Assembly (NCBI RefSeq): GCF_008326305.1
Contig: NZ_BIXY01000001.1
Location: 1 to 64,000 of the forward strand
Length of the DNA: 64,000 nucleotides
DNA from: Dictyobacter arantiisoli
GTDB lineage: Bacteria > Chloroflexota > Ktedonobacteria > Ktedonobacterales > Ktedonobacteraceae
Direction: 5' to 3'
This document shows, piece after piece, positions 5,215 through 64,000 of this stretch (position 1 is its first letter; each line of letters opens with the position of its first letter). The translations under genes were made by a program, and so were the position numbers. The notes beneath the pieces are model-generated. The model did not search any database. It was not told the DNA's origin and worked only from the letters and a program-made list of their open reading frames with translations.

Positions 5215-5613
5215 ATGCAAATCGGAGACATTAAAAAGTGGAAACGTACCTTCACAGACGAAGATGTACGCCTTTTCGGCAAGGTATCCAGAGATATGGG
5301 TACCCACCATATCCTGCCAGATGAACAGGGACGCGTCATGGTTCATGGCTTATTAACAGCTACCCTGCCTACCAAGCTCAGCGGAGAACTTAATTTTATC
5401 GCCCATGACCTATCTTTTGAATTTATTCGCCCTGTCTTTGTCGGAGATACCGTTCACTGTATGGTCACGATTACTCATCTAGAGCAGGTGGATAATCGCA
5501 CCAAAGTGACGGCAGCGGTTCTTTGTCACAATCAGTATGGCAAAATTGTGCTGCGCGGCCATACGGCTGGAATTATTCGTGAGCCACAACCAATGAGTGT
5601 TGGTCTGCTTTAA
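5215..5613 (+). CDS. MaoC-like hotdog-fold enoyl-CoA hydratase
   Basis: Hotdog-fold protein of 132 residues resembling MaoC-type (R)-specific enoyl-CoA hydratases. The catalytic pair is likely Asp27 and His32 in SRDMGTHH, aligning with the family D-x-N-P-x-H pattern, and MVHGLLTATL resembles the conserved helix end. A longer frame starts at a GTG at 5182; the ATG at 5215 follows GAGAGAAGG and is preferred. Its place between fadE and fadA suggests hydration of enoyl-CoA intermediates, perhaps of (R) stereochemistry, which could divert intermediates to polyhydroxyalkanoate or other uses. Substrate is inferred only. Confidence 0.8.
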   Translation: MQIGDIKKWKRTFTDEDVRLFGKVSRDMGTHHILPDEQGRVMVHGLLTATLPTKLSGELNFIAHDLSFEFIRPVFVGDTVHCMVTITHLEQVDNRTKVTAAVLCHNQYGKIVLRGHTAGIIREPQPMSVGLL

Positions 5614-5732
5614 GCGCCGCTCTATCTTTTAAAACAACAATCATTGAATTGACAAAATAGTCCATCATGCACGGCGTGCCGGATACATCTACCTGATACG
5701 CCATGTGTGGTGATGCAAAGGAGCAAGTAGCC

Positions 5733-44609: not shown

Positions 44610-44747
44610 TTGTATTTCCCTTTCACTACTTAATTGCTTTATTCGAATTAAATATTTTTACCGCACTATAGCTATTCCAATATAAACATCTAAATTTGGT
44701 TCTAATTTAGAATAATACCCATAAGATTGTCAGTTGAGAAATTTTTA

Positions 44748-47700
44748 TCAGGATTCCAGAGGAGCAAATAAGCCAAGTGAGCAGATGATTTGCGGTTCCT
44801 GTGGCTCTTCCTCTTCTAGAATGTTGCAGAGGCGATTGGCGTCGCGTAATTTGATGACTAGCCCTGCAAGTTCGTCGTCAGTGATGCCAGCGCGTAGTTG
44901 CCGGTTCAGGGTATCTCGTGCCGATCCCTGGAGGGGATAGCGATAAATTTCGTCGATGGCTTTTAACAGCTCTGGTTGTGGCGGAAAGAGTGTCTCTCTG
45001 GTTGTTTCAACAAAACGCTTTAATTGGTTATACGTTCGCATACGTGCTCCAGATCGGCTGCCCAATTGTCCGATAGATCCGCTGGTTTCCTCTTTGATGA
45101 TATGTTTCACCCCTTCTATCACCAGCTCATGCTGCTCTTCTGGACGCGCTATGATGGGTGTGAGGGAATTACAGGCGGCGGCACGTAAGATGGCGAGTTG
45201 CGATTGCGTGACACTTTCACCTTTACGATTGATCCAGGCCAGCGAGTCGTTGCCTTCGGAGGTACGCATATAGACAAGCACGCCCTCTGGAGCTATAGCG
45301 GTTCCTCGATGTTCTCGTGTGGAGAAAGCAACATTGGGTAACTTTTCAACAATGCCTTTGAGACGTGGATCAGCATCAATTGCGTTCTTCCAGATTTGAT
45401 AGGCTTGCGATGCTAAATCAATATCAGAGTCGCCATCACCGTCAAGAATGCTGGCTTTCTCGTTATAAAGATCTTGCATAGATTGATTGGAAAGATCATC
45501 CTCAGCCACATCGTCTTCAAAAAAGTGTTCGTCGGTACCAACCACATCAGCGTTCTCTTGTAAGCGCTGCCGCACACGCTCCCGCAGTCGAATCAGGCGT
45601 TCAACCCCTTCAGCAGGTAAAAATGAATAGCAATAGATACTATCCGCCCTCTGCCCAATACGATCAACGCGGCCTGCCCGCTGGATCAGCCGAATGATGG
45701 CCCATGGCAGGTCATAGTTGACGACAATCGCGGCGTCCTGCAAATTTTGTCCTTCACTCAAGACGTCTGTCGCGATCAGGATACGCAACTCTTTTTCTGG
45801 AGCGATTTGCTTGCGCCGATTGTTGCTGACCGGGCTAAATCGCCATGCCAATAACGTAGGATCTTCATCACTGCCGGTGACGCCTTCGATGGAAGTTATA
45901 CCATATGCTTTGAGTTGTTGGGTGAGATAGCGTACAGTGTCGGCAAACTGGGTAAAGATCAGCACTTTCTCATCAGGATGTTGTCGCGTCAGAAGATCAA
46001 CCAGGGCATTGAATTTGCCATCCAGGTCGGTCTGCCAATCACCACATTGGGACAATATCGATAGCAACTTATGAGCATCCTGCTGCAAATCTTTTTTGAG
46101 ATGAGCATTGAAGTAGTGAGGCTTGATCCACTTGAAACGTCGATGATATTGTCCCGCATATTGTTTATAGATGGCCGCTGCTTTTTGTTTAAAAACCGCT
46201 TCATTTTGTGCATCCAACGCATCCGCATCAATCAACTCGCCCGGCTCTAACAGTGCATTTACAAATGTCAGTCCTTCATTGCTGGCATCGTTCTCATCGG
46301 ATGTAGTGGATAGCACAGTCTCTTCATCTTCATCATTGGTGTTAAGATCCAACAATTCGACATTCTGCGTGCCGATAGGAATATCCAGATCATGCTCAAT
46401 CGCATAGATTACGATATAGTTGCGTAAAATATGGCGTTCAATTGATTGCAGAAAAGCCGGACCACCACTCTCCAGGCGTTTAAAAAGATTGATGCGGCAA
46501 AAGCCCATCAGACGTTTGCCACCCTTGGATAGACCTTGCAGGATCAAATCATCGGTTCCTTTAGCCTTGACACGCTTGTTGACATAACTAGCCATCCCAT
46601 AGCGCGGTAGATTGAGCTCGCTGATCGTGGACACAACCTTCTCGGAATAAAGCAGCGCATAGGGATCATGGTCGGGTTGCTGTTCACTGTTAACATGAAA
46701 CTTGACGGTCCGAGGCACACGCAATGGGAAATAGGAACGTGTTTTATCCGGGAACTCAAGATATTTACGACCACTTTTTGCGTCCAGGCGAGCATAATTA
46801 TCTTGAATGAAACTACGGGTACGCCGTACGAGAAAATGGCGCATCAGTTCGCGCCAATCATCCGCATGCTGACTCTTCTCGAAAGCTGTCAATGAGCGTA
46901 CAGGACATTGAAAGGCTGCGTTAAACTTCGCCTCCCCCATCTCGCTCAAGAGAGCCTCTGGACGAATACCCAGATCTTTGCTCATCTCATCATTCAGAAA
47001 GAGGCGCAACTGTGTCGAGATATCAATATACGTCTTGTTGTAAGGGGTAGCTGTGAGCAGAATACACTTGCTTTCGTTTTTCTCAATATAGTCTTTGATG
47101 ACCTTATAGCGTTTTCCTTCGCGGTTACGCAGATTATGGCTCTCATCGATAATTACTAGCCGATAGCGTCGTAGTTCGTGTAATTCATTGATTGCCATAC
47201 TCATTGAACAGATGTGCCCGACAATCCCATATTCCTGCAAGTAGCTATCCCACATCTTGACCAGATTCTTGGGGCAGATGACCAGCGTCTCCAGGTTATA
47301 GTCATCCTGCATGATACGGGCCAGGGCGGTCGCCATCAGCGTTTTACCCAGACCGACAACATCGCCAATAATCACGCCGCCACGTTTATTGAGATGGCGT
47401 GCAGCGATCTTGACGGCGGCGGTCTGGTAATCGAAGAGCCGATCACGGAAGATATGGGGGATGGTAAAATCGCTCAGGCCAGCGCGTGCCTCTTCGGACA
47501 GGTGATAAGCCATCTTCAGATAGATATGATAGGGAGGAATATCGTCTTTACGCGCCCAACTCTCGTCGATGATATCCGCCAGTTCGGTTGAAATATCCAG
47601 GCACCAGCGATCCTCCCAGCGACCCTCAAACCACTGTTCCAACTTGCGGCAGGCATCATTATCTACCACATCCACATTCAGCTCGCCCTGATGGGATAAG

Positions 47701-48200
47701 CCTGAAAATGTGAGATTACTACTGCCTACATAGCCAACCGACTTCGCGTAAGGATGGCTGGGATTATAAAGCAGATAGAGCTTGGCATGGAGATGATGGC
47801 GCAAGAACAGCTTGACAACCAGCCTCCTGGAACGCAACTGCTCGCTCAGACGACGCAAACCCTCATAATCCGCATTGGTAGGTGCGCCGACCAGAAGTTG
47901 ATCACGGAACTCCTGAGCCACCTGCTTTTTAATACGCACCGCCACAGAATTATCGATGCCTTGATCATCGCGCAGACTAAAAAACTTGCGCAACTCATTC
48001 TCTGGCTTATCCTGCATGCCAATCATCAAACGGCAACAGGACTCATCACCTCCCTGCCACGCCTCCATCAAATGATCAACATGCCGCCAGCCACGCAAAT
48101 TAAAATAGCCCACACAAAAATCTGCTCGCTCCGACACCTTCAGCGTATCCTGCAACGCCCCCAACATCTTCTGCTCTATATTATCAAAAATCCTCGGCAT
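44748..48200 (-). CDS. Fused PLD-like nuclease and SNF2-type helicase
   Basis: Protein of 1150 residues. The N-terminal part (1-190) carries one PLD motif, HAKLYLLYNP followed by VGSSNLTFSGL. A helicase superfamily 2 domain follows: Walker A GDVVGLGKTLMA, DESHNL box, LLTATPYNK, and the C-terminal helicase half with LIATDVLSEGQNLQDA and QRAGRVDRIGQ. It abuts the methylase gene with no gap, so the two are translationally coupled. It probably translocates on DNA, with or without cutting. It resembles DrmD-type helicases but with a fused PLD module. Confidence 0.88.
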   Translation of the reverse strand: MPRIFDNIEQKMLGALQDTLKVSERADFCVGYFNLRGWRHVDHLMEAWQGGDESCCRLMIGMQDKPENELRKFFSLRDDQGIDNSVAVRIKKQVAQEFRDQLLVGAPTNADYEGLRRLSEQLRSRRLVVKLFLRHHLHAKLYLLYNPSHPYAKSVGYVGSSNLTFSGLSHQGELNVDVVDNDACRKLEQWFEGRWEDRWCLDISTELADIIDESWARKDDIPPYHIYLKMAYHLSEEARAGLSDFTIPHIFRDRLFDYQTAAVKIAARHLNKRGGVIIGDVVGLGKTLMATALARIMQDDYNLETLVICPKNLVKMWDSYLQEYGIVGHICSMSMAINELHELRRYRLVIIDESHNLRNREGKRYKVIKDYIEKNESKCILLTATPYNKTYIDISTQLRLFLNDEMSKDLGIRPEALLSEMGEAKFNAAFQCPVRSLTAFEKSQHADDWRELMRHFLVRRTRSFIQDNYARLDAKSGRKYLEFPDKTRSYFPLRVPRTVKFHVNSEQQPDHDPYALLYSEKVVSTISELNLPRYGMASYVNKRVKAKGTDDLILQGLSKGGKRLMGFCRINLFKRLESGGPAFLQSIERHILRNYIVIYAIEHDLDIPIGTQNVELLDLNTNDEDEETVLSTTSDENDASNEGLTFVNALLEPGELIDADALDAQNEAVFKQKAAAIYKQYAGQYHRRFKWIKPHYFNAHLKKDLQQDAHKLLSILSQCGDWQTDLDGKFNALVDLLTRQHPDEKVLIFTQFADTVRYLTQQLKAYGITSIEGVTGSDEDPTLLAWRFSPVSNNRRKQIAPEKELRILIATDVLSEGQNLQDAAIVVNYDLPWAIIRLIQRAGRVDRIGQRADSIYCYSFLPAEGVERLIRLRERVRQRLQENADVVGTDEHFFEDDVAEDDLSNQSMQDLYNEKASILDGDGDSDIDLASQAYQIWKNAIDADPRLKGIVEKLPNVAFSTREHRGTAIAPEGVLVYMRTSEGNDSLAWINRKGESVTQSQLAILRAAACNSLTPIIARPEEQHELVIEGVKHIIKEETSGSIGQLGSRSGARMRTYNQLKRFVETTRETLFPPQPELLKAIDEIYRYPLQGSARDTLNRQLRAGITDDELAGLVIKLRDANRLCNILEEEEPQEPQIICSLGLFAPLES

Positions 48201-51200
48201 CTATTTATTGTCCTCATCGTTTATATCTTCCACACTCATACGATATTTTATATCATAGTTAATAATGAAGTCGATTTCTTCATCAGTAAAATCATAGTGA
48301 ACAGCTAATATACGATCAATTTTATCAATGATATGCTTAGATTTACGAGGAGAAAGTTCTTCATATATGACTTTCCCTGTTGTTTTGTAGTAACACTCCT
48401 TCGAAATGGCATTCCTTTGCAAATCATCCATTAGTTCATAAGACAACGACACAAGTCTTTCTCTGACATCTTCTGCCATCTTGTTTATACTTACGGGAAA
48501 CGACTCAATCTCATGCTTGCCACAGTGGTATCCCTCAAACAACGTATACCACCACCAAAAAAAGAGGTTTGAATTTAAAATGGCAACGATGATCAATGCG
48601 TCGCCTTGTTCAAACAGATAATAGGGTTTGTAATCCTCAGATTTCTTTTCTCCATCAATTTCGTTCCAGAAATAAGGAACAAAATTAACTGCCTTGACGT
48701 AGTTATACGGAATTCGATGAACATAAAATGGTGCTCCAAAATTCTTTTTAAAGTAAGCAGGCTTAAGTTTGTTAATTTTATTCAAAATTGTTTCGTCTAA
48801 CTTCTTTCCTAATTTAGGTATTGTATATAATTTATGATCGTAAAAGGTGCTAGAATAGGAAAGATACTTAAATAGATTATCACGCTCTGCATTTTTCCAT
48901 CTATGATATTTACTGGATAATAATGTATGCTCATTGCCACTTGGTGATGTCAACAAAATTGTTAATCTTTGTTTAGCTCCTTCAAACAATTTTGAAGGAT
49001 AAACATCAAAACTACTCAACCATGCATCATTTTTTTTATGGTCCATTATAGTCTGTAAAACATTCATTCTCTCTGTAGATACAATGCTTAATGGAACAAT
49101 GAATCCAATTCGACCGCTCTTAGACTTTAGTATATATGCCCGCTCACACACAAATGCATAGATGTTTCCACAATCAATTGTCTCATAACCTTTTAATGTA
49201 TATTCTTTCCTGATTTTACTATATTCTACATAAGGTGGGTTCCCAATTATCACATCAAAACCGCCGCCCTGCATAATTCTATAAAATTCTATCCACCAAT
49301 GAAATGGCCGATGTTTTTTAATCCACTCTTTGTATTCGAGACTTTGCCCTTTATCAACATAGTTAAATTTAAAATCGTATTCGGTAGCGATATACCCATC
49401 AATTTCTTTTCTCAAATGAGTAAGTTTTTCGTACAATATCTGTTTATGTTCCCGCAGAGTCTGACCTTCGAAGGTAAGCTTATATTCAGTTTGTAAGCGA
49501 CGAAAAACTCCCTCACTACGCTCAATTTCTTTCGCTTGTTTTTCGATATTAATTAAAGTGTCACTTAGGGTTGCTCTAGCAATCAAATTATGTTGCACGA
49601 CCTGGCGCACCTCTTCCAAGTTGGTAAAGCCTATAAGAGTGTTACCTGCAAGAATATTAAAGTCAATATCGGGCAAGGGTTCGAGTTCGTTGGGTTTGGT
49701 GACGTGAGAAACCAGTTTGAGGAAGAGGCGCAATTTGCAGATTTCAACTGCTTCTTCCATAATGTCCACACCATAGAGGTTATTGATGATTATAGATTTG
49801 AGAATAAAATATTCCTGACTATGATGCGTTCCTACAAGTGCCAGGATCTTACGGAAGTAATTGATACGGTTACTGACCATACGCTTACTCACGGGCAGCT
49901 TTGCATCGAGCTGATCGCGCTCTTCGACCAGTTCCTGCATGCGTTTCAGGCAAGCTTCGTAGAGCGGCTTGAGGATATTGAGGGCGGCGAACAAGAAGGC
50001 TCCTGAGCCACAGGTGGGGTCCAGAACAGTGACTTTCTCAATAACCTGATAGAAGGCTTTTAGTAACTCTGGCCCTTCGCTATAAGCGATGACGTGTCGT
50101 GCGAACTTACAGATATCCAGGTTGTAGGTGATCAGATCATTGATGGAAGTGATCTCGCCTGAGATCATCTTTGTGCGCACCTCTTCATAGCGCTGGCGTC
50201 GCGCAATTACCTCGCGCCAGATCTCAGTTGGTAAGGCATACTCTTCAGGAGCTGGCTTATTCCACAAGGTTCGTTGCGCAACATCCTGCACACCTACCTC
50301 AATCTCCGCAGGCAGAGGTTCATTCACGCCCTTCGCCACAGCTTCATAGATATATTCATCTGGATTATTGCGCAACAGTGCCCAGACCGGCCCATCGGCC
50401 TCAAAAGCAATTGAGCACTGGTTTGCAGCCTTCTCAAACAGAAACGGAATAACGGTATTCTTGCTAATATACTCCGTGATGTCCTCTTTGGTATAATACG
50501 CCCCCATCTGCTTCTGATTGATATACTTCTCAAAAATATAGCCCAGCACATCGGGATTAATCTCATTGCCCTTACTCGTGGGACGATCATCCAGATACCA
50601 ATCATAAACATCGAAGAAGGCGAAGAGATGCTCAAATGCCTCATCGTCAATCTGAATATTCTCATACTTCTGTTCTAGCATATGTACATCAAAGAGACCA
50701 CCATTCAGATAGGGCACATTACCAATGATCTTATCTATCTCAGGCGTACGTTCACGTTTGCTCAAGCCATCATGAAAAAGGCACAGCAAGAAATAGCGAT
50801 AGAAAGTATAGAAAAATCCCTGTCCATTGAGTTCCTGCGTTAACTTTAAATGATTCCGCAAATAGTGTGGATCACCCTTCAGCTCACGCTCGCTTGTATT
50901 GTCCAAAAAACCTTTGTGCTGGATAAAATAAATAAACATCAAGCGATTCAACATCAGTGAGGCGTACCACTCCCGATCCTTATCGTCCTTGATGTCATCA
51001 TTGATGCCATGAATGTGTTCCAGAAAAAAGGTATGCTCTTTCTTGAAGCGTTCATAAAACTTCGTTGTAACCTTATCAACATCAAAACCGCTCTTCACAC
51101 GCCCATAGGTTACAATCACATCAGCATTTTCCTCTTCATCGATGCCAAAGGCAATATTGGAGAGCTTATGGGCCAAAAGTTCAGCGCTTTGACCTTGATA

Positions 51201-51563
51201 GAGTTTATTGATACGCGCAGCCGCCGGTTCTCCTGGCTCTCGCTTGATCCATAGCCAGGCCTGATTGGCTTTCATTCCATCCAGAAAGATAATAATTTTT
51301 TCATGGGCATAAGGTTCCAGCAAACGATCAAGTTGTTTGAGGACCTTATCCTCCGGGATAGGACCATTTGTGCACATACATGTGTAGGTTTTAAAACCAC
51401 CTTTTTCTGCCAGAGGCTCAAAAATATAGTCCTGTCCTTTATAGGGGATTGAAAGAGCTGTCTCTTTCAGGCGGTTCCAACCTAATTCCTCAAAAAAAAG
51501 ATGCTTTAAATTACATGCCTCAAGCTGCTTTTTGATCTGTTGAATATCCACTTTAGTTAACAT
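48201..51563 (-). CDS. N6-adenine DNA methyltransferase, Eco57I/PglX-like
   Basis: Protein of 1120 residues. Motif I is VLDPTCGSGAFLFAALNIL and the catalytic motif IV is VIIGNPPYVEY, as in amino-methylating adenine methylases. GAYYTKEDITEYISKNTVIPFL is the usual lead-in. The C-terminal 250 residues (ILNSNLFFWWWYTLFEGYHCGKHEIESFPVS) match TaqI-like specificity domains. An N-terminal 330 residues has no recognised fold. First gene of a three-gene operon. It probably sets the DNA sequence specificity of a restriction-like system; a separate specificity subunit is not needed. Confidence 0.88.
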   Translation of the reverse strand: MLTKVDIQQIKKQLEACNLKHLFFEELGWNRLKETALSIPYKGQDYIFEPLAEKGGFKTYTCMCTNGPIPEDKVLKQLDRLLEPYAHEKIIIFLDGMKANQAWLWIKREPGEPAAARINKLYQGQSAELLAHKLSNIAFGIDEEENADVIVTYGRVKSGFDVDKVTTKFYERFKKEHTFFLEHIHGINDDIKDDKDREWYASLMLNRLMFIYFIQHKGFLDNTSERELKGDPHYLRNHLKLTQELNGQGFFYTFYRYFLLCLFHDGLSKRERTPEIDKIIGNVPYLNGGLFDVHMLEQKYENIQIDDEAFEHLFAFFDVYDWYLDDRPTSKGNEINPDVLGYIFEKYINQKQMGAYYTKEDITEYISKNTVIPFLFEKAANQCSIAFEADGPVWALLRNNPDEYIYEAVAKGVNEPLPAEIEVGVQDVAQRTLWNKPAPEEYALPTEIWREVIARRQRYEEVRTKMISGEITSINDLITYNLDICKFARHVIAYSEGPELLKAFYQVIEKVTVLDPTCGSGAFLFAALNILKPLYEACLKRMQELVEERDQLDAKLPVSKRMVSNRINYFRKILALVGTHHSQEYFILKSIIINNLYGVDIMEEAVEICKLRLFLKLVSHVTKPNELEPLPDIDFNILAGNTLIGFTNLEEVRQVVQHNLIARATLSDTLINIEKQAKEIERSEGVFRRLQTEYKLTFEGQTLREHKQILYEKLTHLRKEIDGYIATEYDFKFNYVDKGQSLEYKEWIKKHRPFHWWIEFYRIMQGGGFDVIIGNPPYVEYSKIRKEYTLKGYETIDCGNIYAFVCERAYILKSKSGRIGFIVPLSIVSTERMNVLQTIMDHKKNDAWLSSFDVYPSKLFEGAKQRLTILLTSPSGNEHTLLSSKYHRWKNAERDNLFKYLSYSSTFYDHKLYTIPKLGKKLDETILNKINKLKPAYFKKNFGAPFYVHRIPYNYVKAVNFVPYFWNEIDGEKKSEDYKPYYLFEQGDALIIVAILNSNLFFWWWYTLFEGYHCGKHEIESFPVSINKMAEDVRERLVSLSYELMDDLQRNAISKECYYKTTGKVIYEELSPRKSKHIIDKIDRILAVHYDFTDEEIDFIINYDIKYRMSVEDINDEDNK

Positions 51564-52137: not shown

Positions 52138-53520
52138 TCACTCCAGGGAGTTTTGTTCTAGTTCCAGGAGTTCTTTGAGCAGGACTTGCAGGGCGTGCTC
52201 TTGTTCGCGGTAGAACTGGCGCATGCTGCCGATGCCGAGACGGCCAGCGGCCTGGGAGTTGTGCAGATGGTGCTTGAAGTAGTGATACCACAGGATATTA
52301 TACAGCCGCCATTCGGGCGCGGAGTCGACACGTATCCCGCCAGCTTGCATGCGTTCAAAGCCGGCTTTTAAGAAGCTGCGTACGTGTACGCCTTTTCTGA
52401 TGGTGGGATTTTTCTCGCAGAGCAATGTGACATAGTTCATTTCGGCGAGGCGGGAGTTCTCAAGGAAGTCGTTGTCCTTCATGTTGTCGAGGACGTCCTT
52501 GAGCTCCTTAAGCTGGAGTTCTGGTCCGGTGATCTGTACGAACTCACGGACACGCTGGCGGAATAAGCTGCTCTCGCTTAATTCGGGCATTTTGCGGCGT
52601 TCGGGATTGCTTTGGATGAGTTCTAATCGCAGGCTCTGCTGCTGATCCTCGTTGAGATCGTTCCAGGAGTTGACGAAGTGTGGTGCTAACTCCCGATAGA
52701 TCTGCTCTTTGATCAGTTCATAATCCAGGACGTCGGCGGGCCGATGGATTTTTTCGTTGACCAGGAAGCGGCAACTGACCTGGACATAGAAAGGATGCCG
52801 ACCAGCCAACGAAATGATCCAATCGACCTCGGTGGGGATGATTTCAAAGCCTGCCTGTCTGGATGGGACACGGATGAGCTGGCGCGTCTCTTCGAGCGTT
52901 AATGAGCTGACAATACACGTCTGAAAGATATTGAAGAAGGGTGATGAGGCAACGGCATCGGAATGGCAGACGTCATAGAGCGGCTTGATGGAGGCGGTGA
53001 CATAGGAGATAAGATCATAGATGCCAGCCAGCGAGCGCAAGAAGGAGAAGAAATCGGGATCAAAGTGGGGATTTCGCGTTACTTTATCAAAGCCGTCCAT
53101 CAGTAAGACGGGTCGCAATCCGGCGTCGCGAATACCCTCCAGGAGCTTTTTTAACTTGTCTTCTCCACTGAATTGATCGGTGGGAATCTGCAAGTCTACC
53201 ATAGCTCGACTCTGTGCAACTATTTGTTCGCAGACCGAGCGAAAAAAATCCTCACGTGTCTTTTGCAGATATTCGCGCCAGTCGGTCAAAATGAAGATGC
53301 GATCCCGTAGCTCGAAACCAACACGCTGCTGAATCTCAGGCCAACCCAAAAATTTGAGCAATGAAGATTTGCCACTATGGCGCGAACCAACCAGCGCCAC
53401 ACACTGTCGCTTCTCAATAGCATTATAGAGCATTTTTAATTCTTGCTGGCGCCCAAAAAACATCGAAGGATCGCGCACCGCATCATAGTCATAATATGGA
53501 TTTATACCTGGAGGATTCAT
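52138..53520 (-). CDS. AAA/STAND-type ATPase with C-terminal helix-turn-helix-like end
   Basis: Protein of 460 residues. NPYYDYDAVRDPSMFFGRQQEL precedes the ATPase; Walker A is GSRHSGKSS (residues 45-53), and Walker B PVLLMDGFDKV. The C-terminal stretch SQAAGRLGIGSMRQFYREQEHALQVLLKELLELE looks like a helix-turn-helix. ATG at 53520 follows AAAGGA; a TTG-initiated frame begins at 53529. Its NPY...FGR entry is like that of the giant protein at 54041, from which it is divergent, so the two may work together. Role inferred: regulatory or effector NTPase. Confidence 0.8.
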   Translation of the reverse strand: MNPPGINPYYDYDAVRDPSMFFGRQQELKMLYNAIEKRQCVALVGSRHSGKSSLLKFLGWPEIQQRVGFELRDRIFILTDWREYLQKTREDFFRSVCEQIVAQSRAMVDLQIPTDQFSGEDKLKKLLEGIRDAGLRPVLLMDGFDKVTRNPHFDPDFFSFLRSLAGIYDLISYVTASIKPLYDVCHSDAVASSPFFNIFQTCIVSSLTLEETRQLIRVPSRQAGFEIIPTEVDWIISLAGRHPFYVQVSCRFLVNEKIHRPADVLDYELIKEQIYRELAPHFVNSWNDLNEDQQQSLRLELIQSNPERRKMPELSESSLFRQRVREFVQITGPELQLKELKDVLDNMKDNDFLENSRLAEMNYVTLLCEKNPTIRKGVHVRSFLKAGFERMQAGGIRVDSAPEWRLYNILWYHYFKHHLHNSQAAGRLGIGSMRQFYREQEHALQVLLKELLELEQNSLE

Positions 53521-54040
53521 CGCTTTCAAATCCTTTCCTTCATTGCCTGCTTCTATTACAGTATATATTTTCGCATACTACTCCTTCATTGTCCATATAT
53601 AATGATATATACCAGTATATATGCCTTACTCTGCCATTTTCTGTCATTCTATTCCTAAAAATACTATTTTGCCACAATGACTGGTTTTAAAAATTCAATC
53701 CTCAGCCGTCTCATCTAGAAGATACTTCCCGTTGTCCTGAAAGGAGATACGTTACTATGTGTGAACAAAGATGCTTTCTGATTACTACATAGATAAAACC
53801 AAATTCCGATACTTTGACAGAGATCCGGCACTATATGGCAGACCGCTCGCTATATACTTCTTGAAAAGTCAGGATCATTTCCTGCCAGTGCGCGAATTTT
53901 TTATGGGGAACGATACAATAATTATAACTGTACGTCTCATCTGAAGATTGGTGCTGGCAGGTTGCCTTTCCGGTATCCGGTATGGGGAAATGACTTTAAG
54001 CACGGATACGGTCCGGCCAGCGAGAAACAGGGGTTATGCG
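53521..54040. other. Shared intergenic region of the two divergent ATPase genes
   Basis: About 520 bp, AT-rich near the minus-strand gene. It probably contains both promoters. No clear repeat or RNA motif was seen. In-frame starts for the giant gene at 53948 (TTG) and 53990 (ATG) lie within it but are less well supported than 54041. Confidence 0.4.
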
Positions 54041-57000
54041 ATGTTAATCAAACCACCACAGTCAAGCACCTCGAGCATTCGTCAGCTAAAAGATGCCCTC
54101 TGGGATGGCGCGGCAATTACGTCGATCCTCTGGAATCATCGTACGAAAGACTGGGTGACCAATGTACAGGCCGCCGATATTGATAACGACGGCGATATTG
54201 AGGTCTTGCTCAGTTCACGCGATGGGACGGTCCGTGTTCATACTCCGCTCGGCGCGAAAAAATGGGATGCTTCCTCCGAAGGCAACTATATCAGCGCGCT
54301 GTGTGCTATTCCCATTTCCGGTCCACCATCCCCTAATAAGAGAAGCATGCAGAAGCAGGCTTGCGTGATTGTCGGCACGCGTAACGGCCTGGTCTACGCG
54401 CTCGATCAGGATGGTGAGCGTATTCCGAACTGGCAATATACAACCGGGCGTATGGTCCGCCAGATCTACGTCCATCCCAATGCACCAGATTATATCGTCG
54501 TTGGTGGACAAGATCGCATGGTCCATGTGCTCAGCCGAGCCACAGGCCAACCGCTCTGGCGTCCCTATCAAACCGATGGTTGGGTACGTAGCGTTTTTGT
54601 ATGTGATATTGATGGTGATCAGCGCTATGAGATATTGGCAGGATCAGGAGATAAATATCTCTATCTCTTCGATGATCATGGTCAATTGTTGGATAAATTA
54701 AATGTGGGGCATCAAATTTATGCTCTCTTCGCCGCTCCTCTAAGGACGGGGGGACCGATGAAGGTTATCACCAGTTCAAATCGCAGCGAACTCTTCGTCT
54801 GGACAATCGAAAAAGGTTCCGAAGGTCAGTGGGTCGCGCACAAAGATTGGGAATTAACATCCGCCAGTGGGATGTTTGAAGATCGCATCCACGCCATTTA
54901 CGTGGATGATATGAATGATGATCAGGAGCCGGAAATTCTGCTTGGCGCAGAAGATGGCTGGCTGTACATTCTCAATGCAAAAGGTGAACTCCTCTGGAAA
55001 CGCCGTTTCGGGACATGCATCTATAGCCTCTTGTCATCAGATATTAATATCGATGGCCAGAAAGAAATTATTGTGGGGACGGAAGATAGCGGTGTCTATG
55101 CAATACAACTTGAACTCAATAGCAAAGTGTATACAAAAATAACGGAAGAGTATCAACATGCATTGCAAGATGAACAGGTTGATGACAATAATAGCATCTT
55201 AAAAATGTTGACCCCTAGAGAGAAGGCAATCTTGAAAGACTTTATTGACGAACGTCCTCCCATCAGCCATGTGCAAATGGCGCTTAGCAAGGGTATAGAA
55301 TTGATGGAAGAGGGACACTATGAAGCGGCACTCTCACTCCTCTTGCGGGTACGACAACAACGCGTACAATACAACTGGTCACAGCCGATTACGACCAATG
55401 GACATATACGCACTATAGATATCGGACAACTCGAACGACCAGGGAAATATGATCTGGTGGTGGGCACTGATACCGGTTATATCTATGCCATCGATGCGCG
55501 GCAAGGAGCCGATCAGTACATCTGGAAAAAAGATGTGCCGGATCGTATTAGATTTATCGGTGTCGCGAACTTACGCCCGGGCGAGCTCGATTCGGTTGTC
55601 GCACTTGTGGGAAACCGCCACGTCTCCGTCCTCAATCATCAGGGCGAAATCGTTGTAGAACGTGCCTTTGAACAGGAAGCGCAGAAGCCACGCAGCCTAT
55701 ACATCAATAGTTTCCCTACCGACCAGAATAAAGAAGCCGAAATTTTGATCGGACAAGAAAATAAGAGCATTGCGATCTGGGATGCTAACATGGAACATAT
55801 CAAGAAAACTATTCCGACACCCCAGGATAGTAGCATCCTTTATGTATCACGCATCATTCAACCGGGTGCCATCGATATTATCAGTGGCTCAGTCACTGAT
55901 CATGTCTATGCCTACGGCCACGATGGAGCTCTCCTCTGGAGCTTTCAAGCCCAGGATCGTATTCAGGCACTCTGTGTAGACGATATCGACGGTGATGGAA
56001 AGGCCGAAGTCATCGTGGGTTCCGAAGATCGCTATGTCTATGTGCTGAGCAATACGGGCTACCTCAAATGGAAATATCGCATGAAACGAGGTGTCCTGAA
56101 TGTAACCACCGCCAAAATGAAACTGGATAGTGATGATGTAGAACTCAAGACTGCCGTTCTGGTCAGCAGCGCAGATAGCTATCTCTATGCCTTGAAAGCG
56201 AGTGGCGATCTCCTCTGGAAGTACAAGAGCCGTACCCGCATCAAAGCAGTCCAGGCCGCAGACGTCAATGAGGATGGTATTGTTGAGATTGTGGTAGCCA
56301 CAGAAAATCAACTGGATCTCCTTCAGGCTCCTGACCGGAGTTATGTCTTTGAGATTATCCAACAATGCTGGGAAAAGTGGCAGAAATTGCAGCCAGACCG
56401 TCACACAGCCATTATGAAATTCACTCACCATCCAGATGAATTTATCCGCGCCTTTTCTCTGGCCAAACTGGCCGGTCAGCACACACGCTATGAAGAAGAT
56501 ACAAAACGGTTCCATGATGCATTGCGTTACGAAGAGTCTCTAGAGGTCAAAAAAGAACTGGTGCGCGCTATTGTCGTTTTCTTGCTTGTACCTACCTACA
56601 AAGAGGAAAATGCGCGTCAGGCCAGAAACTTTATTCGTCAGCTTTCCGCCGATCCAGAACCTGAAATTCGTCTCGCCATCGTCAACCTTCTGACAGCCCT
56701 GATTGATCTCGATGAAGGCCTCTGTTTTGACTACCTTGAATACTTCACGCATAACGTTGACCTCTGGGTACGCCGTACCGTGGTCCGACAAATCAATACA
56801 CTGGTGGAAGCATATCCCGAACGCACGTTTCATCTCTTACAAATCACGATGAATGATGAGGAGGAATGGATTCAGCAAGAGACTGGGCGCACACTGGCCC
56901 ACTACTTTACCGTGCATCCAGAGCGCGTTATTCACGACAGCCTGCTTCTCCTGTCGGCCCGTATCAAACCAGCCATTCTCGAACAGATTTCGCACTCAAC

Positions 57001-59041
57001 CGATCTGCCAGCCATTCAACACTGGTTTAGCAGCCTGATGTCCCTGCTCACCAGATTCCAGAAACACACCCTGGCAAGCGCATTGGATGATTTTCTTGCC
57101 GCTATCCAGGATCTGCAGGCCTTTTCGCCTCAGTATGGCGATGATTACTTCCAGATCTATACAGAATTTCGCCGCATCTTACAAATACATTCCAGTAATA
57201 CGCTGGCTCAATATCAATGGACTAATACTGCGGATGATGAAGAAAAGGATAAGGCATACAGCATCATCAAGACCTGTATGCATATCTTTGATGAGTTCTG
57301 CGAGGTGGCGAATATTATTCGCGGCTTTGAGAGACGCGAGGCCGTGCGGGATCTGGTCACCAGTTTGATCAGCGCGACTGATAAAATTGAGCTGATACGT
57401 GCCCAACTACGCCAGGAAGAATTGCGGCAGGAACAGGCATATACCCAGGGCTATTATACCCTGCCAGAAATGGCGATCCTTTCCCTTTTATTGGACCAAT
57501 TCTATCAGATTGTCAAGGTTGAGATTAATAGATTACGCGGCAGCGCTCGTCTGGTCGCTGAGATTCGCAATAAAGAGATACAACCCGAAAAGGAAGTAGT
57601 TGTCTCATTATGCGTGAGTAACAAAGGGGTCAGTGCCGCCGATAATATTCGTGTCTGCCTTGCTGAGGCGGAACAGGATTATAAGATTGTCGGAGCCAGA
57701 CAACAAATCCTGACGCAGCTTCCTACCGGAGGAGCGGCCTCAGTCGAGTTTCAGCTTCAGCCCTATAGCCCCGCGCCCCGTCTCCGCTTTCAAATTACAT
57801 ATGATGATGCCGAAATGCACGCAAAAAAGGAAGAGTTTGCAGATGTCTTCATCCTGAAAGATCGGCAACATCCTTACATCGAGATCGCGAATCCTTACAC
57901 CAGCGGTACTCCAATTCGTGATCGCCATATGTTTTATGGTCGGCGTGAAGATATCGATACGCTACGCGAAAAGCTGAGCAGCGTCACAGCCAATAAGGTC
58001 GTGGTCCTCTCGGGACAACGCAGGATGGGCAAGACGAGCCTGGTCTATCAGCTCAAAAAAGAGCTGACCTATGGTCCTCAGGTGCCTGTCCTGATCGATC
58101 TCCAGGGCCATGATTTGCAAAGCATGGGACACTTTCTGTTCGGGATGGCCCAGCGGGTACGTGAGGAGATGCAATCGCAACGACAGATGGTTGTTCCTAT
58201 GGCGGAGCGCTCAGATTTTCTCGCCAATCCTATTGATAGCTTCAACTTCTTCCTCGCACAAACCATTGACTCTTTGCAAAACGAGAAGATCGTCTTCCTC
58301 TTGGACGAATTCGAAATGCTGCAAGAAAAGATTAACAAGGGTCCGCTGAACGAGAATGTCCTGCACTACCTGCGCAGTTTGATGCAACATCGTCAGGGCT
58401 TGAACTTTCTACTCGTCGGCGCGCCACGGATTCGCTATGTCACAGAACCATTGTGGTCAGTCTTCTTTAATATCGCCATTCACCATAACTTAAAGAGGCT
58501 GGAACAGAGCGAAGCCCGGGCCTTGATCACAGAACCTGTCAAAGGCATGCTGGAATACGACATGCTCGCCCTGGAGCGCATGCATAAATTATCGGGCAAC
58601 CTCCCCTACTTTATCCACGTGCTCAGCGAAATCTTGATTTCCTACTGCAACAGGCAACACAAATCCTATGTCACGATCAATGATATCAACAATGTATTAG
58701 AGATCGTGCTGGAAGAACAATCCGGTACGATCAACTGGATCTGGAACCAGCCATCCTCAACAACTGAACGCTTTCTCCTTTCCGTGCTGGCGCAGGATAA
58801 AGGGGAAGACGGTCGCATCTTTACCTTCAGTGATATCTACGCGGAGTGTGATGTACAGGGCTTCCACTATGAACAACAAAAAATAGTTGCCGCCCTCCAA
58901 AATCTGGTACGCGAAGATCTGATTGAAGAACTCCATCATGGAGCACAATACCGCTTACCCGTCGGTTTGTTCAAAGAATGGCTGCGTAAAGCCAAATCGC
59001 CCGAACGCGTGCTGCAAGATGAATGTGCTTACGACGATTAA
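54041..59041 (+). CDS. Giant beta-propeller, HEAT and STAND-like ATPase fusion
   Basis: Protein of about 1,666 residues. Two blocks of FG-GAP/PQQ-like propeller blades (about 40-370 and 450-765) carry calcium-loop-like motifs: DIDNDGDIE, DIDGDQRYE, DMNDDQEPE, DINIDGQKE, DIDGDGKAE, DVNEDGIVE. HEAT-like helices follow (790-970), then a coiled region, an Ig/CARDB-like domain (1167-1275) and an ATPase with NPYTSGTPIRDRHMFYGR, Walker A GQRRMGKTS near 1325 and Walker B VFLLDEFEML near 1416. No signal peptide is evident. The start is uncertain: AGGGG lies 7 nt before the chosen ATG, with ATG 53990 and TTG 53948 as alternatives. Function unknown; the layout fits a sensor-STAND protein. Confidence 0.85.
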   Translation: MLIKPPQSSTSSIRQLKDALWDGAAITSILWNHRTKDWVTNVQAADIDNDGDIEVLLSSRDGTVRVHTPLGAKKWDASSEGNYISALCAIPISGPPSPNKRSMQKQACVIVGTRNGLVYALDQDGERIPNWQYTTGRMVRQIYVHPNAPDYIVVGGQDRMVHVLSRATGQPLWRPYQTDGWVRSVFVCDIDGDQRYEILAGSGDKYLYLFDDHGQLLDKLNVGHQIYALFAAPLRTGGPMKVITSSNRSELFVWTIEKGSEGQWVAHKDWELTSASGMFEDRIHAIYVDDMNDDQEPEILLGAEDGWLYILNAKGELLWKRRFGTCIYSLLSSDINIDGQKEIIVGTEDSGVYAIQLELNSKVYTKITEEYQHALQDEQVDDNNSILKMLTPREKAILKDFIDERPPISHVQMALSKGIELMEEGHYEAALSLLLRVRQQRVQYNWSQPITTNGHIRTIDIGQLERPGKYDLVVGTDTGYIYAIDARQGADQYIWKKDVPDRIRFIGVANLRPGELDSVVALVGNRHVSVLNHQGEIVVERAFEQEAQKPRSLYINSFPTDQNKEAEILIGQENKSIAIWDANMEHIKKTIPTPQDSSILYVSRIIQPGAIDIISGSVTDHVYAYGHDGALLWSFQAQDRIQALCVDDIDGDGKAEVIVGSEDRYVYVLSNTGYLKWKYRMKRGVLNVTTAKMKLDSDDVELKTAVLVSSADSYLYALKASGDLLWKYKSRTRIKAVQAADVNEDGIVEIVVATENQLDLLQAPDRSYVFEIIQQCWEKWQKLQPDRHTAIMKFTHHPDEFIRAFSLAKLAGQHTRYEEDTKRFHDALRYEESLEVKKELVRAIVVFLLVPTYKEENARQARNFIRQLSADPEPEIRLAIVNLLTALIDLDEGLCFDYLEYFTHNVDLWVRRTVVRQINTLVEAYPERTFHLLQITMNDEEEWIQQETGRTLAHYFTVHPERVIHDSLLLLSARIKPAILEQISHSTDLPAIQHWFSSLMSLLTRFQKHTLASALDDFLAAIQDLQAFSPQYGDDYFQIYTEFRRILQIHSSNTLAQYQWTNTADDEEKDKAYSIIKTCMHIFDEFCEVANIIRGFERREAVRDLVTSLISATDKIELIRAQLRQEELRQEQAYTQGYYTLPEMAILSLLLDQFYQIVKVEINRLRGSARLVAEIRNKEIQPEKEVVVSLCVSNKGVSAADNIRVCLAEAEQDYKIVGARQQILTQLPTGGAASVEFQLQPYSPAPRLRFQITYDDAEMHAKKEEFADVFILKDRQHPYIEIANPYTSGTPIRDRHMFYGRREDIDTLREKLSSVTANKVVVLSGQRRMGKTSLVYQLKKELTYGPQVPVLIDLQGHDLQSMGHFLFGMAQRVREEMQSQRQMVVPMAERSDFLANPIDSFNFFLAQTIDSLQNEKIVFLLDEFEMLQEKINKGPLNENVLHYLRSLMQHRQGLNFLLVGAPRIRYVTEPLWSVFFNIAIHHNLKRLEQSEARALITEPVKGMLEYDMLALERMHKLSGNLPYFIHVLSEILISYCNRQHKSYVTINDINNVLEIVLEEQSGTINWIWNQPSSTTERFLLSVLAQDKGEDGRIFTFSDIYAECDVQGFHYEQQKIVAALQNLVREDLIEELHHGAQYRLPVGLFKEWLRKAKSPERVLQDECAYDD

Positions 59042-59050
59042 CATCTGATC

Positions 59051-59084
59051 ATGTGGAATAGTACAGCGCTGTACTATTCCACAT
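59051..59084. terminator. Perfect 34-bp palindrome between convergent genes
   Basis: ATGTGGAATAGTACAGC and its exact complement meet with no spacer (59051-59084), then gatc recurs outside. It lies between the giant gene and the convergent maturase gene, which fits a bidirectional terminator, but it lacks a U-run on both strands. Confidence 0.55.
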
Positions 59085-59109
59085 CCTGATCCTGCCAGAA
59101 CAGATCAAA

Positions 59110-60249
59110 TCAGGCCGTGGCGACCTTGTAGCGCTGCTCAAGATGTTCTAATAACACATCTGTCGTGATCTTGATGCGTAAACGGCAGGCATGCGTTTCT
59201 GTAGAGTCAAAACTACCGTTTTCATGCAACTTATTTGAAGGCGCGCCACCACCACATAAAGCGAAGTAGTCACAACTCTCCCGACAGCTCGCGATGCCGC
59301 GCTGAATTGCTGCATACATCGGCACAAATTTACCATCCTGCAAAATATCTTCCAGTTGTGTGGTGAAGACATTGCCAAAGGTGAATCTGCCATACACAGG
59401 ATGAGTGAAGGAGAGCAATTCAGGTGAGAATGTCGATATGTTGCCCTCATAATCAAAATTGAGGATCGACATTGGTGTATTTGTGCCAGCGTTGTTCGCT
59501 ACCTGGCCCGCCTGTATCTTTGCTAACAGGGTATCGAACTCACGAATAGGTAAAGGGGATTGACTCTGCTCATTTAAGCTTAACAGGCGTTGCAGAAAGC
59601 GTTTATACTGTTCGATACCTGCAAGCGTATGCAGAGACGAATGCCGATTACAACCTTCCACCTCCTCAGGATTCAGTCCTAACCTGCTGGGTTGTAATTC
59701 CGCAAAAAAGTGCCAGAATTCGTCTGGATAGTGGACCGTTTCACCTGTTACTACCGCGATGGCCGAGTAGGGGATATCATTGGCACGCAACAATGCGATG
59801 CCTTTGAGCACACGTTCAAAGGTGCCTCTGTTTTTGCGGTCAACACGCTGCGCATCATGCAGATATTGCGGCCCATCGATACTGACGCCAACATGGATAT
59901 CGTGTTCACGAATAAAGTCGCACCATTGCTGCGTGATCAGGGTAGCGTTGGTCTGAAAAGCATTGCTGATGTGCAAACCATTGACGTTATACTGCTGCTG
60001 CAACAAAAAGGCTTGTCGATAAAAATCAATGGATAGCACAAGGGGTTCTCCGGCATGCCAGATACAGGTCAGCTCGTCTTTAAGAAAAGGCGAGGCGCAA
60101 AGGACCTGAAAGATCTGTGCCAGTGTCGCATTACTCATGCGCCGACTTAAGGTACGCTGCGGCAAGTAGCAATAGCGACAATTAATATTGCAGAATGGTG
60201 TTGGTTGGATCACAACAAGTTGGTTCTTCACAGAGAAGCCTTTCCCCAT
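59110..60249 (-). CDS. Radical SAM/SPASM peptide maturase (cyclophane-forming type likely)
   Basis: Enzyme of 379 residues. The radical SAM cluster motif CNINCRYC (Cys20, 24, 27 from the ATG at 60249) sits in LVVIQPTPFCNINCRYCYLP, closely like GrrM/OscB-type maturases. The C-terminal SPASM region has CRESCDYFALCGGGAP and a final HACRLR, supplying ligands for auxiliary iron-sulfur clusters. Start MGKGFSV or two residues upstream; no strong ribosome site. It is 56 bp downstream of a small ORF on the same strand, the candidate precursor. Role inferred: crosslinking of aromatic residues in a RiPP. Confidence 0.85.
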   Translation of the reverse strand: MGKGFSVKNQLVVIQPTPFCNINCRYCYLPQRTLSRRMSNATLAQIFQVLCASPFLKDELTCIWHAGEPLVLSIDFYRQAFLLQQQYNVNGLHISNAFQTNATLITQQWCDFIREHDIHVGVSIDGPQYLHDAQRVDRKNRGTFERVLKGIALLRANDIPYSAIAVVTGETVHYPDEFWHFFAELQPSRLGLNPEEVEGCNRHSSLHTLAGIEQYKRFLQRLLSLNEQSQSPLPIREFDTLLAKIQAGQVANNAGTNTPMSILNFDYEGNISTFSPELLSFTHPVYGRFTFGNVFTTQLEDILQDGKFVPMYAAIQRGIASCRESCDYFALCGGGAPSNKLHENGSFDSTETHACRLRIKITTDVLLEHLEQRYKVATA

Positions 60250-60305
60250 AAACATTCAGGGCCCATACCTGATCACGCGATATATGTGTTTTTGAAGCAC
60301 AGCAT

Positions 60306-60641
60306 TTATTTCTCAGCATCAGTCCAGCCATCATCCCATCCAAACAAGCCTTGATTTGTTTGACGCAGATCAATCTTATACACTGCTGCAAGCTTACGTA
60401 ACTGTGCACGGATAAATGGGGAGAAGAGCCATGCTTGATAGGGGGAAAACGAACTGCTTACTCCATGCGAAATGTTGAGGAACTTGCTCGCTTCATCGCA
60501 TGTATGCTGTTGATCACTATCAGTACATTTTTCAATTTCCAAGGATATCATACATGTTGTGGCTTCTGAGAGCATATGCTGGCGCACGCTGGCAATGCGC
60601 TCAGCAAGAGGTGGCGGTTCAGTTTCAGAAGTAATCGTCAT
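60306..60641 (-). CDS. Candidate RiPP precursor of the radical SAM maturase
   Basis: Protein of 111 residues upstream of the maturase gene. GAGGAG precedes the ATG at 60641; the frame is open to 60728. The first 97 residues (SETEPPPLAERIASVRQHML..., FSPYQAWLFSPFIRAQLRKLAAVYKI) could be leader. The C-terminus GLFGWDDGWTDAEK (98-111) holds two Trp-x-Asp triplets, WDD at 102-104 and WTD at 106-108, matching the three-residue cyclophane pattern of such maturases. No known family recognised. It could instead be an unrelated small protein. Confidence 0.6.
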   Translation of the reverse strand: MTITSETEPPPLAERIASVRQHMLSEATTCMISLEIEKCTDSDQQHTCDEASKFLNISHGVSSSFSPYQAWLFSPFIRAQLRKLAAVYKIDLRQTNQGLFGWDDGWTDAEK

Positions 60642-61107: not shown

Positions 61108-64000
61108 ATGCTAGATAGTAAGACGCTTATAGAACCCATTCTCCACCTGATACAGGATCATCTAGATAGCTGGATTCAAGCAATAGTGCCACTCCTGGGG
61201 ACAGGGATTGCGGCAGCGTTTGGGGTCGGCTTTCATGCCATTATAGCGCAGGCCAGGAAACGCACCCCGCCTCAGGAAAGCCAGAGCGAAAAGATAGATC
61301 AAAATAAATTCAAACACGCAATTACAGCTTATGAGCAATCAGTACTGACAAATTCGCATATCGCACAGATACAAATTATAGATATGCCACATCCCCTCAA
61401 TCTCCTGGAGGTCTATGTCCCACTGCATCTGCGCTCCCATAGCGCCCTTCCCTATACCATTAATCTGATCTATGAGGAAAATGATGAAATACCAGATTCT
61501 GAACAGCTCTTATTAGCCCCCTCCAATACGCATTTGTATACTGATAACACGCCGATCCTGGACAAGGATATACTGCAACACTACAAGCGCTGTATCATCA
61601 TCGGTGATCCTGGAAGTGGGAAGACCACGCTGCTTCATTATCTGGCCCTCAAGACCGCGCAACATACACTTGAGAGCGCTCCATGCACACCTGTCTATAT
61701 CGCGCTGACAACCTTTGATTGCGAGCGACACAAGAATCTCTTCGAACTCATCCTGGCCCAATTTGAACATTTTGGGGATCTTCCTGCTCTGAGCGCCCGC
61801 TTACAGCTCGCGATGAAAGCGGGACAAATACTGCTCTTGCTCGATGGTCTGGACGAAACTCGCTCCAGCACTCCCGCCAGAAATACCTATGACTTCCTGG
61901 TTGGAAATATTAAACAACTGGTCAATCGCTATGCGGATATGCCGATGGTGATCTCGGTTCGTAAAGCGGGTTATCAGCAACGGGTTAAGATTACCGGCTT
62001 CAATGAGCTCGAAATTATGGATTTTCAGATTGAGGAGAGCCGTACTTTTATCGAAAACTGGTTTCGAGCCTATCCAACCAACCAGAAAGAAGAGAAGATC
62101 AAGGCCCTCACAGGCTATCTGGAACGCAACGTCCGTATCCAGACACTGGCGACAAATCCCCTCCTTCTCTCACTCATTGCCATTGTCTGTGAAAGGCAGC
62201 GTCGCATGCCCACACACAAAGCTCAACTCTATAGAGCCTGTATTGACATCCTGCAAACAGGCTGGGATACCAGTCGGGATATCGCACGCAGCCAGACCTT
62301 TACACAAATCGCGCTCTCTCGCCTCTATGAGGAGATCGCCTGGCACTTCCACAACCAGAAGAAACGCTACTTTCCTCTGGACGAACTCCTTGCCGTGCTG
62401 CAAAACTACTCCCAGACCAGTCATATGCCACTTGAAAGCTGCCAGCAGTTCCTTAATCAGATCGCAATTGACAATGGTCTACTACGCGAACAGGCTCATG
62501 GCTGGTATGGTTTTTCACATCTCACCTTCCAGGAGTACTTTGTCACCCAGTACATCATTCGCAATCAACAACAAAAGCTCCTGCGTCAACACTTTGTTGA
62601 TCCCTGGTGGGAGGAAGTTATTCTCCTCTATGCCAGTAGCACGTCGGATGCCAGTCAACTCCTGAGCATTCTCCTGGGACAACATCGCCAGCTTTATAAC
62701 ACAGATGATCTCTTTCATACCCATCTTCTCCTGGCTGGCCGTTGCCTGGGAGAGAATCCACGTGTGAAGCAGCAAAAATTACCCGAACAGATCATTGATC
62801 AGTTGTTGCAAACCTTACAATCTACACCATACGCGCTGGATCGTGAACGCATTGCGTCTATACTCGCAGGAATGGACCATGCGCACGCCAATCATCACTT
62901 GCTACAGATTCTGACTGCACCCGCCAGTACTCCTGACCATATCTATGAATGCGTAGTGCGAGCCATCGGATATGCTGGCAATCCATCCTTTGCGACAGAG
63001 CTGGTAGCGCTCCTGGGGCAGTCGCACATAGCTCGCTATAAACGTATCATGCTCGCGCGAGCATTAGGGATCTTACAAGAAACGCACACTGGCAAACAAC
63101 TCGTTAGGCTCCTCGTCAATCCAAAAGAAGATCCTTTTGTGCGCCAGGGCGTTGGGATGACAATTGGACAACTGGGTGAAAGTAGCGCGCTTTCAGCCTT
63201 AATTCACGTCAGCCAGCAGGCAGATGAGCATACGCTGGTACTCCAAAGCATTGCCTTTGCCCTTGAAAAACTGGGCGGCCCACAGGCGATACAAGCACTC
63301 ATCACAATGGTACAGAACAGACTGCTCGACTCGGCTGTGCGCGGCAGTAGTATCAGGATGCTGGGCAAGCTACACGCCAGGAGCAGCATTCCCCTCTTAG
63401 AGACGATTCTAAAGGATCGTGAAGAGAACATTTACGTTCGGCGTTGCGCGGCCCTGGCGCTGGGTGAGTTTAGCTATGCCGAAATCCCTGTACCAACCAT
63501 GCTGGCTCTTCTGCATAGCAAATATGTTGAAACTGGCGTACGTGTCAGTATTGCCAATAGCTTTGCGACTCTCGGAGATCCTCGCGTAGCCAGCGAGCTC
63601 ATCGAAGTGCTTCTCAATCAGGATTGCCATATCAAAGTTCGCATGAGTGTTGCGCTAACGCTCGGTTTTCTCAAGCAACGCGAACAGATACTTACGCTGA
63701 GGAGCATCGCGCAAGAACAGCAACACGGTGATGTAAATCTCTATACCTGCCTGATAGTCGCGCTCAGCATGCTGGGAGTGAGCACCGTGATCAATGATCT
63801 GGTTGATCTCCTGCTGCATCCAGACATCGCGCATGATACACTCCCACATATTGTCAACGCGCTACTGATACAAGCTGAACAACATACCATTGATACCCAC
63901 GCGATGGCCCGGAAGATGGTCGGTCACCTGCAAGTTGTTACGCTGGACCGCTATCGAGGACAGTGCATCCTCAAGGTGCTCTGCAAGTTACGCGTCACCG
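61108..64000 (+). CDS. NACHT-type NTPase with HEAT repeats (truncated by window end)
   Basis: The frame runs without a stop from the ATG at 61108 to the window edge, 964 codons. AAAGGA precedes the ATG. A hydrophobic segment near residues 27-48 (IVPLLGTGIAAAFGVGFHAII) could be a membrane anchor. The NACHT module has Walker A GDPGSGKTTLLHYLA near 166 and Walker B LLLLDGLDE at 242-250, followed by the NACHT-type helical end (GFSHLTFQEYFVTQYI). From about 600 onwards HEAT/PBS-type repeats recur (VRQGVGMTIGQLGESSALSALI, VRRCAALALGEFSYAEIP). Bacterial NACHT proteins often sense phage or stress, but no assay-based function can be given. The end is missing. Confidence 0.88.
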   Translation, partial: MLDSKTLIEPILHLIQDHLDSWIQAIVPLLGTGIAAAFGVGFHAIIAQARKRTPPQESQSEKIDQNKFKHAITAYEQSVLTNSHIAQIQIIDMPHPLNLLEVYVPLHLRSHSALPYTINLIYEENDEIPDSEQLLLAPSNTHLYTDNTPILDKDILQHYKRCIIIGDPGSGKTTLLHYLALKTAQHTLESAPCTPVYIALTTFDCERHKNLFELILAQFEHFGDLPALSARLQLAMKAGQILLLLDGLDETRSSTPARNTYDFLVGNIKQLVNRYADMPMVISVRKAGYQQRVKITGFNELEIMDFQIEESRTFIENWFRAYPTNQKEEKIKALTGYLERNVRIQTLATNPLLLSLIAIVCERQRRMPTHKAQLYRACIDILQTGWDTSRDIARSQTFTQIALSRLYEEIAWHFHNQKKRYFPLDELLAVLQNYSQTSHMPLESCQQFLNQIAIDNGLLREQAHGWYGFSHLTFQEYFVTQYIIRNQQQKLLRQHFVDPWWEEVILLYASSTSDASQLLSILLGQHRQLYNTDDLFHTHLLLAGRCLGENPRVKQQKLPEQIIDQLLQTLQSTPYALDRERIASILAGMDHAHANHHLLQILTAPASTPDHIYECVVRAIGYAGNPSFATELVALLGQSHIARYKRIMLARALGILQETHTGKQLVRLLVNPKEDPFVRQGVGMTIGQLGESSALSALIHVSQQADEHTLVLQSIAFALEKLGGPQAIQALITMVQNRLLDSAVRGSSIRMLGKLHARSSIPLLETILKDREENIYVRRCAALALGEFSYAEIPVPTMLALLHSKYVETGVRVSIANSFATLGDPRVASELIEVLLNQDCHIKVRMSVALTLGFLKQREQILTLRSIAQEQQHGDVNLYTCLIVALSMLGVSTVINDLVDLLLHPDIAHDTLPHIVNALLIQAEQHTIDTHAMARKMVGHLQVVTLDRYRGQCILKVLCKLRVT

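Follow-up and report, generated by a model that had tools for sequence, protein, structure and literature searches.

The window, i.e. the whole 64,000-nucleotide stretch of DNA analysed here, contains a small open reading frame (ORF) followed by a maturase gene, both on the minus strand. ORF calls on the sequence return the two genes as the initial annotation described them. The maturase gene, at 59110..60255 (-), encodes a radical SAM/SPASM cyclophane maturase of 381 residues. In a profile search it matches TIGR04261 (GrrM/OscB) with 437 bits, above the curated cut-off of 310, and all its radical-SAM (CxxxCxxC) and SPASM cysteines are present, which confirms the GrrM/OscB type proposed earlier. 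The AmcB model gives 300 bits, below its cut-off of 425 and well behind the GrrM/OscB score. The small ORF, at 60306..60641 (-), lies 50 bp upstream on the same strand and encodes a precursor peptide of 111 residues, with a leader helix LAERIASVRQHMLSE and the tail FGWDDGWTDAEK. Its ATG at 60641 is preceded by AGGAG, a good ribosome-binding site. The frame is open further up to a GTG at 60728, giving 140 residues.

According to Pfam, the pair is flanked by two STAND-type NTPase genes, as had been noted in passing; we rank these neighbours as the more interesting part of the locus. The first, at 53948..59041 (+), is convergent with the maturase gene and encodes a giant STAND NTPase of 1697 residues with PQQ/FG-GAP-type beta-propeller regions, a HEAT-like region and an nSTAND/AAA ATPase. 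Between the two convergent genes there is a hairpin, TGTGGAATAGTACAGCGCTGTACTATTCCACA, at 59050..59090. It is a perfect palindrome, folds at z -5.5 on the plus and -4.3 on the minus strand, and is a probable two-way terminator. An nSTAND2 ATPase (52138..53529, minus strand, PF20702 with 76 bits) is located head-to-head with the propeller-STAND, and this head-to-head pair (52138-59041) is kept in many Ktedonobacteria genomes, maturase present or absent. The second flanking gene, NACHT-HEAT by its Pfam domains, occupies 61108..63999 (+) and runs off the window; in the full contig it encodes 1041 residues. Among the other GrrM loci it has an orthologue, with 45% identity, in L022 alone, and it is a doubtful member of the cassette. 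At 42525-51563 the window contains a defence island with a GmrSD-like protein, an SNF2/PLD helicase and a type IIG restriction-methyltransferase (1100 bits). Searching the NTPases of the window with PADLOC gave weak matches only.

Close relatives of the maturase, defined by an E-value below 1e-60, are present at eight loci, the window included, in 6 out of 47 Ktedonobacteria genomes searched. The named relatives, Ktedonobacteria bacterium brp13 and Ktedonosporobacter rubrisoli, place the window's own genome in this class. The related maturases score 402-449 bits against the GrrM model, and no match to the window maturase was found in viral contigs. In an alignment of 16 maturases the CxxxCxxC and SPASM cysteines are kept in all except L027 (G007 C1, 6379-7692), where a GrrM-like maturase carries the precursor as a C-terminal fusion. 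Here the middle cysteine of CxxxCxxC is gone (CDIDHLYC), as is one SPASM cysteine. With these two losses, the fusion probably has no activity or is decaying, or it is a pseudoenzyme that bears its own substrate. The same contig (G007 C1:3568000-3583000) has an FxsB/YhhB-like maturase (L073, 6816-8248; 246-267 bits, below the cut-off), preceded by an 84-residue ORF containing GYSKGDRYSKADRYSKAEM repeats; this is another candidate cyclophane precursor, here with Tyr-Ser-Lys. On the Streptomyces plasmid NZ_CP033582.1 (604576-617661), lantibiotic dehydratase, thiopeptide-type and lanthionine synthetase C genes flank the GrrM gene, possibly a hybrid RiPP cluster.

A small ORF is found upstream of the maturase in seven of the eight loci, ribosome-binding sites recur before the precursors, and L027 has the fusion. 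No family in NCBIfam or Pfam matches the 111-residue ORF; with TIGR04260 (the GrrA/OscA precursor) and the other NCBIfam models there is no match even at E 0.1, whereas a cyanobacterial GrrM-linked precursor (L018) matches TIGR04260 with 72 bits. With the other precursors of the class the window precursor shares only 15-25% overall identity, and searching it directly against genome contigs found nothing. A weak family-level precursor match (E 0.005) was dropped, as its DNA reads as a MutS-like ATPase gene.

The initial annotation described the leader as unlike that of the Gly-rich GrrA precursors. The Gly-rich repeat core is indeed absent, the tail FGWDDGWTDAEK standing in its place. However, the leader helix itself, LAERIASVRQHM, matches those of GrrM-linked precursors from Nostoc, Phaeobacter and Nitrospinota, and the motif h-x-x-R-h-x-x-h-R-x-x-h is common to most of the leaders. 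Six of the seven separate Ktedonobacteria precursors have a leader helix in common with GrrM-linked precursors from other phyla. Judged by its sequence, the window leader is therefore of the GrrA kind and not new in kind. To avoid circularity, a leader profile of 15 columns was trained only on five GrrM-linked precursors from outside the Ktedonobacteria (Nitrospinota, a cyanobacterium, another Chloroflexota family, Nostoc and Phaeobacter). Among 1290 small ORFs, the seven upstream ORFs obtain ranks 1, 3, 6, 11, 20, 30 and 430 (Mann-Whitney p 2e-7), the window precursor being number 20 and that of L026 number 430. A regular expression combining leader motif and Trp tail finds six distinct ORFs out of 931, each beside a GrrM gene, and 0 out of 2491 small ORFs in loci outside the set, where the sole match was an already counted GrrM locus. 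This expression was picked after the sequences were seen, so the outside-trained profile is the better test. The proposal that the small ORF is a precursor is thus upheld by its ribosome-binding site, its profile rank and the upstream equivalents in relatives, and we are highly confident that the precursor/maturase pair is genuine.

The tail of the window precursor contains WDDGWTD, and in the six related loci with a separate upstream ORF the tail is of the form Trp-x-[D/K/Q/T]: FWTDDWVDWNKLEDWNDL in L021, YWTDWHK in L022, WAKWDKYEEPWKDCPWGD in L023, WDQWSKTPPEPWDDCW in L024, WQKWQK in L025 and WLTWEQ in L026. In the L027 fusion a leader-type SLIERISRLRKQIALMNEN is followed by DAWTDDWNDWSDWPK, its tail also being given as WTDDWNDWSDWPK. 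The L022 precursor (4912-5742, genome G006) is 276 residues long, with a long degenerate RSNDRDR repeat separating the leader from the Trp tail. As the initial annotation required, the small ORFs are linked to maturases and the Trp-x-x triplets recur, though with a variable third residue. In 24 triplets the third residue is D in 12, K in 8, T in 2 and Q in 2 (24/24), whereas the second position is free, with D/K/T/Q in only 12/24. The third-position test gives p 8e-5 for the class D/K/T/Q, a class picked after the data were seen, and p 0.05 with a broad polar class.

According to a review (PMC11002830), OscB, the type member of the GrrM branch, crosslinks C7 of Trp with the beta carbon of an Asn or Asp residue. 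The aromatic-x-Asp pattern that was pointed out for WDD and WTD holds, and by analogy with this published OscB chemistry both are the expected crosslink substrates of the window maturase. It is likely that three-residue Trp cyclophanes are formed on the tail; in the window peptide itself there would be one at each triplet. Going by the same review, Trp-x-Lys, Trp-x-Gln and Trp-x-Thr in the relatives would be new for GrrM, if real.

In each of the eight loci, the maturase gene and a gene for a large STAND NTPase are convergent. In five of them, window included, this NTPase has the propeller-HEAT-nSTAND architecture; orthologues of the window's propeller-STAND are next to GrrM in four other genomes. 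In the other three (L025, L026, L027) it is a TIR-NB-ARC-TPR protein. A TerC gene lies between the maturase and the propeller-STAND in L023 and L024. In the TIR-NB-ARC-TPR loci the 3' ends of the two genes are 34 bp apart, or overlap (L026 and L027). Of the 15 propeller-STAND sites in the class, five are beside GrrM. The linked ones form their own clade with support 100/100 (5/5 linked, compared with 0/8 elsewhere on the tree), and the maturases of these loci likewise group as a clade (99/97), splitting the genomes alike. Since the linked propeller-STANDs are one clade, diverged to about 34% identity, the linkage has outlasted this divergence. Part of it is stable synteny, as the nSTAND2 gene is kept in linked and unlinked loci alike, and the propeller-STAND link may be a single ancestral event preserved by general synteny.

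TIR-NB-ARC-TPR genes are common, with 4-44 matches per genome, some of them fragments (20 in G007, 44 in G017). From these counts, assuming one gene per kilobase, we estimate that under roughly 0.5% of genes would be a TIR-STAND by chance, whereas all three loci without a propeller-STAND have one beside the maturase. In the TIR-STAND tree L025 and L026 pair (89/80) and may be one duplicated cassette, while L027 is unplaced; a single origin is seen in 14% of the bootstrap trees. The TIR domains of L025 and L026 match ThsB in PADLOC with 155-161 bits. Among PDB structures, kinesin light chains are the best relatives of the TPR portion of the TIR-STAND. Kinesin light chain TPRs bind short Trp-acidic motifs. 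Trp-acidic tails occur in several of our loci, less so in the TIR-linked ones, L027 excepted.

The best explanation, to which we give a probability of about 0.55, is that the pair and the STAND gene form a triceptide cassette of the GrrM/OscB branch dedicated to the STAND NTPase, for conflict or signalling. The maturase would bind the precursor through its N-terminal amphipathic leader helix (h-x-x-R-h-x-x-h-R-x-x-h) and join the Trp indole to the beta carbon two residues on, with 2 Da lost per ring. The ring sites would be WDD and WTD in the window and W-x-D, W-x-K, W-x-Q and W-x-T in the relatives. The modified tail may then act as ligand, trigger or restraint of the convergent STAND NTPase and might be sensed by its propellers or, where the NTPase is of the TIR kind, by its TPRs. 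We infer a functional coupling between the peptide pair and the STAND NTPase, at slightly better than even odds. The restriction and helicase neighbours and the ThsB-like TIR domains fit a conflict role. Against the coupling, TerC intervenes in two loci, the window is a defence island, where unrelated genes gather, and TIR-NB-ARC-TPR genes are abundant; further, neither a protease nor an exporter was recognised in the cassette, the L026 leader fails to score and L027 is short of a cluster cysteine.

The most serious alternative, which is possible though we do not favour it, is an ordinary triceptide pair making a secreted natural product, e.g. an antimicrobial, with the STAND genes as mere neighbours in a defence island of stable gene order. 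The pair by itself suffices for triceptide chemistry, restriction and helicase genes are close by, and the nSTAND2/propeller-STAND pair occurs without GrrM in many loci. GrrM loci of other taxa also lack an annotated adjacent STAND gene, as seen in the plasmid loci of Nostoc, Phaeobacter and Streptomyces. However, a neighbour by accident does not agree well with a convergent STAND gene in 8/8 Ktedonobacteria loci and in two architectures, nor with the separate clade of GrrM-linked propeller-STANDs, and no transporter was recognised next to the pair.

It is improbable that the maturase acts on the Trp tail by forming another bond (ether, C-N or a larger ring) and so makes a new product class. 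Lysine is third in several tails (WSK, WQK, WNK), as in darobactin, ether and C-N links are made by related radical SAM enzymes (PMC9055067, PMC11002830), and the tail in the window departs from the classical GrrA core. The GrrM score is, however, far over its cut-off, while the DarE/DarW models reach only 127-151 bits against a cut-off of 650, with DynA likewise well behind GrrM/OscB, and both window triplets are W-x-D, a reported OscB substrate. The suggestion of the initial annotation that the product class could be new is therefore unsupported, since the leader is of a known kind and Trp-x-Asp is known OscB chemistry. Finally, it is very improbable, and already disfavoured, that the small ORF is no real gene or that the maturase has its substrate elsewhere. 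In favour of this reading, the ORF matches no database family and its identity to the other precursors is low, as described above; against it, related loci repeat the ribosome-binding site, the position, the leader and the tail, and in L027 precursor and maturase are fused.

Triceptide maturases are common, and the roles of their peptides are mostly obscure. The link to STAND genes suggests a concrete job, in which a chemically stapled peptide controls an NLR-like switch, the pair staying by one STAND clade through deep divergence. More tentatively, the stapled peptide could be a dedicated ligand or restraint of immune-type STAND proteins that arose separately with FxsB in Actinobacteria and with GrrM in Ktedonobacteria, on two STAND architectures. 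If true, the modification of peptides by radical SAM enzymes would be a general means of licensing NLR-like switches in bacteria, because the arrangement would have arisen separately in two maturase branches and two STAND architectures. To the candidate substrates of GrrM the relatives also add Trp-x-Lys, Trp-x-Gln and Trp-x-Thr.

No earlier description of the Ktedonobacteria cassette was found in the literature searched, most subscription papers being outside its reach. Among known systems, it shares with GrrA/GrrM (OscA/OscB; TIGR04260/TIGR04261) the maturase family, the precursor-then-maturase order and the leader helix motif. Several known members also have a Trp-containing core (NWDN..WNDS in Nostoc, a Trp-rich core in Phaeobacter). 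It differs in a core that is not Gly-rich and has a short Trp-x-[D/K/Q/T] tail, in the missing TIGR04260 match and in the constant STAND NTPase neighbour. The darobactin and dynobactin maturases (DarE, DynA) are likewise radical SAM/SPASM enzymes that act on Trp-containing motifs, Trp-x-Lys included; the maturase studied here scores far below their curated cut-offs, and no export genes were recognised at its loci.

The closest comparison in gene content is with the FxSxx systems (FxsA/FxsB). In actinobacterial peptide-processing systems, Kaur et al. 2020 (PMC7159879) describe the FxSxx peptide together with a radical SAM-SPASM enzyme, a metallopeptidase and a TPR-bearing TIR-AP-ATPase; for the peptide they propose a role as toxin or as a signal amplifying the system. 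Both kinds of system combine a cyclophane-type radical SAM/SPASM enzyme with a precursor that is small and variable but keeps a C-terminal motif, and in three of our eight loci (L025, L026, L027) the adjacent gene is also a TIR-NB-ARC-TPR STAND ATPase. In contrast, our maturase is GrrM and not FxsB (TIGR04269, 103 bits against a cut-off of 370), the tails are Trp-x-[D/K] and not FxSxx, and five loci, window included, have a propeller-STAND. No HEXXH ORF of at least 150 residues was found near the maturase in any locus, the sole match in the window being about 59 kb off. Since the maturase family and the motif differ and this peptidase was not found nearby, the cassette resembles the FxSxx systems in gene content and is not a member of them. 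With it, the peptide/radical SAM/TIR-AP-ATPase concept published for Actinobacteria gains a further phylum, maturase branch and sensor architecture.
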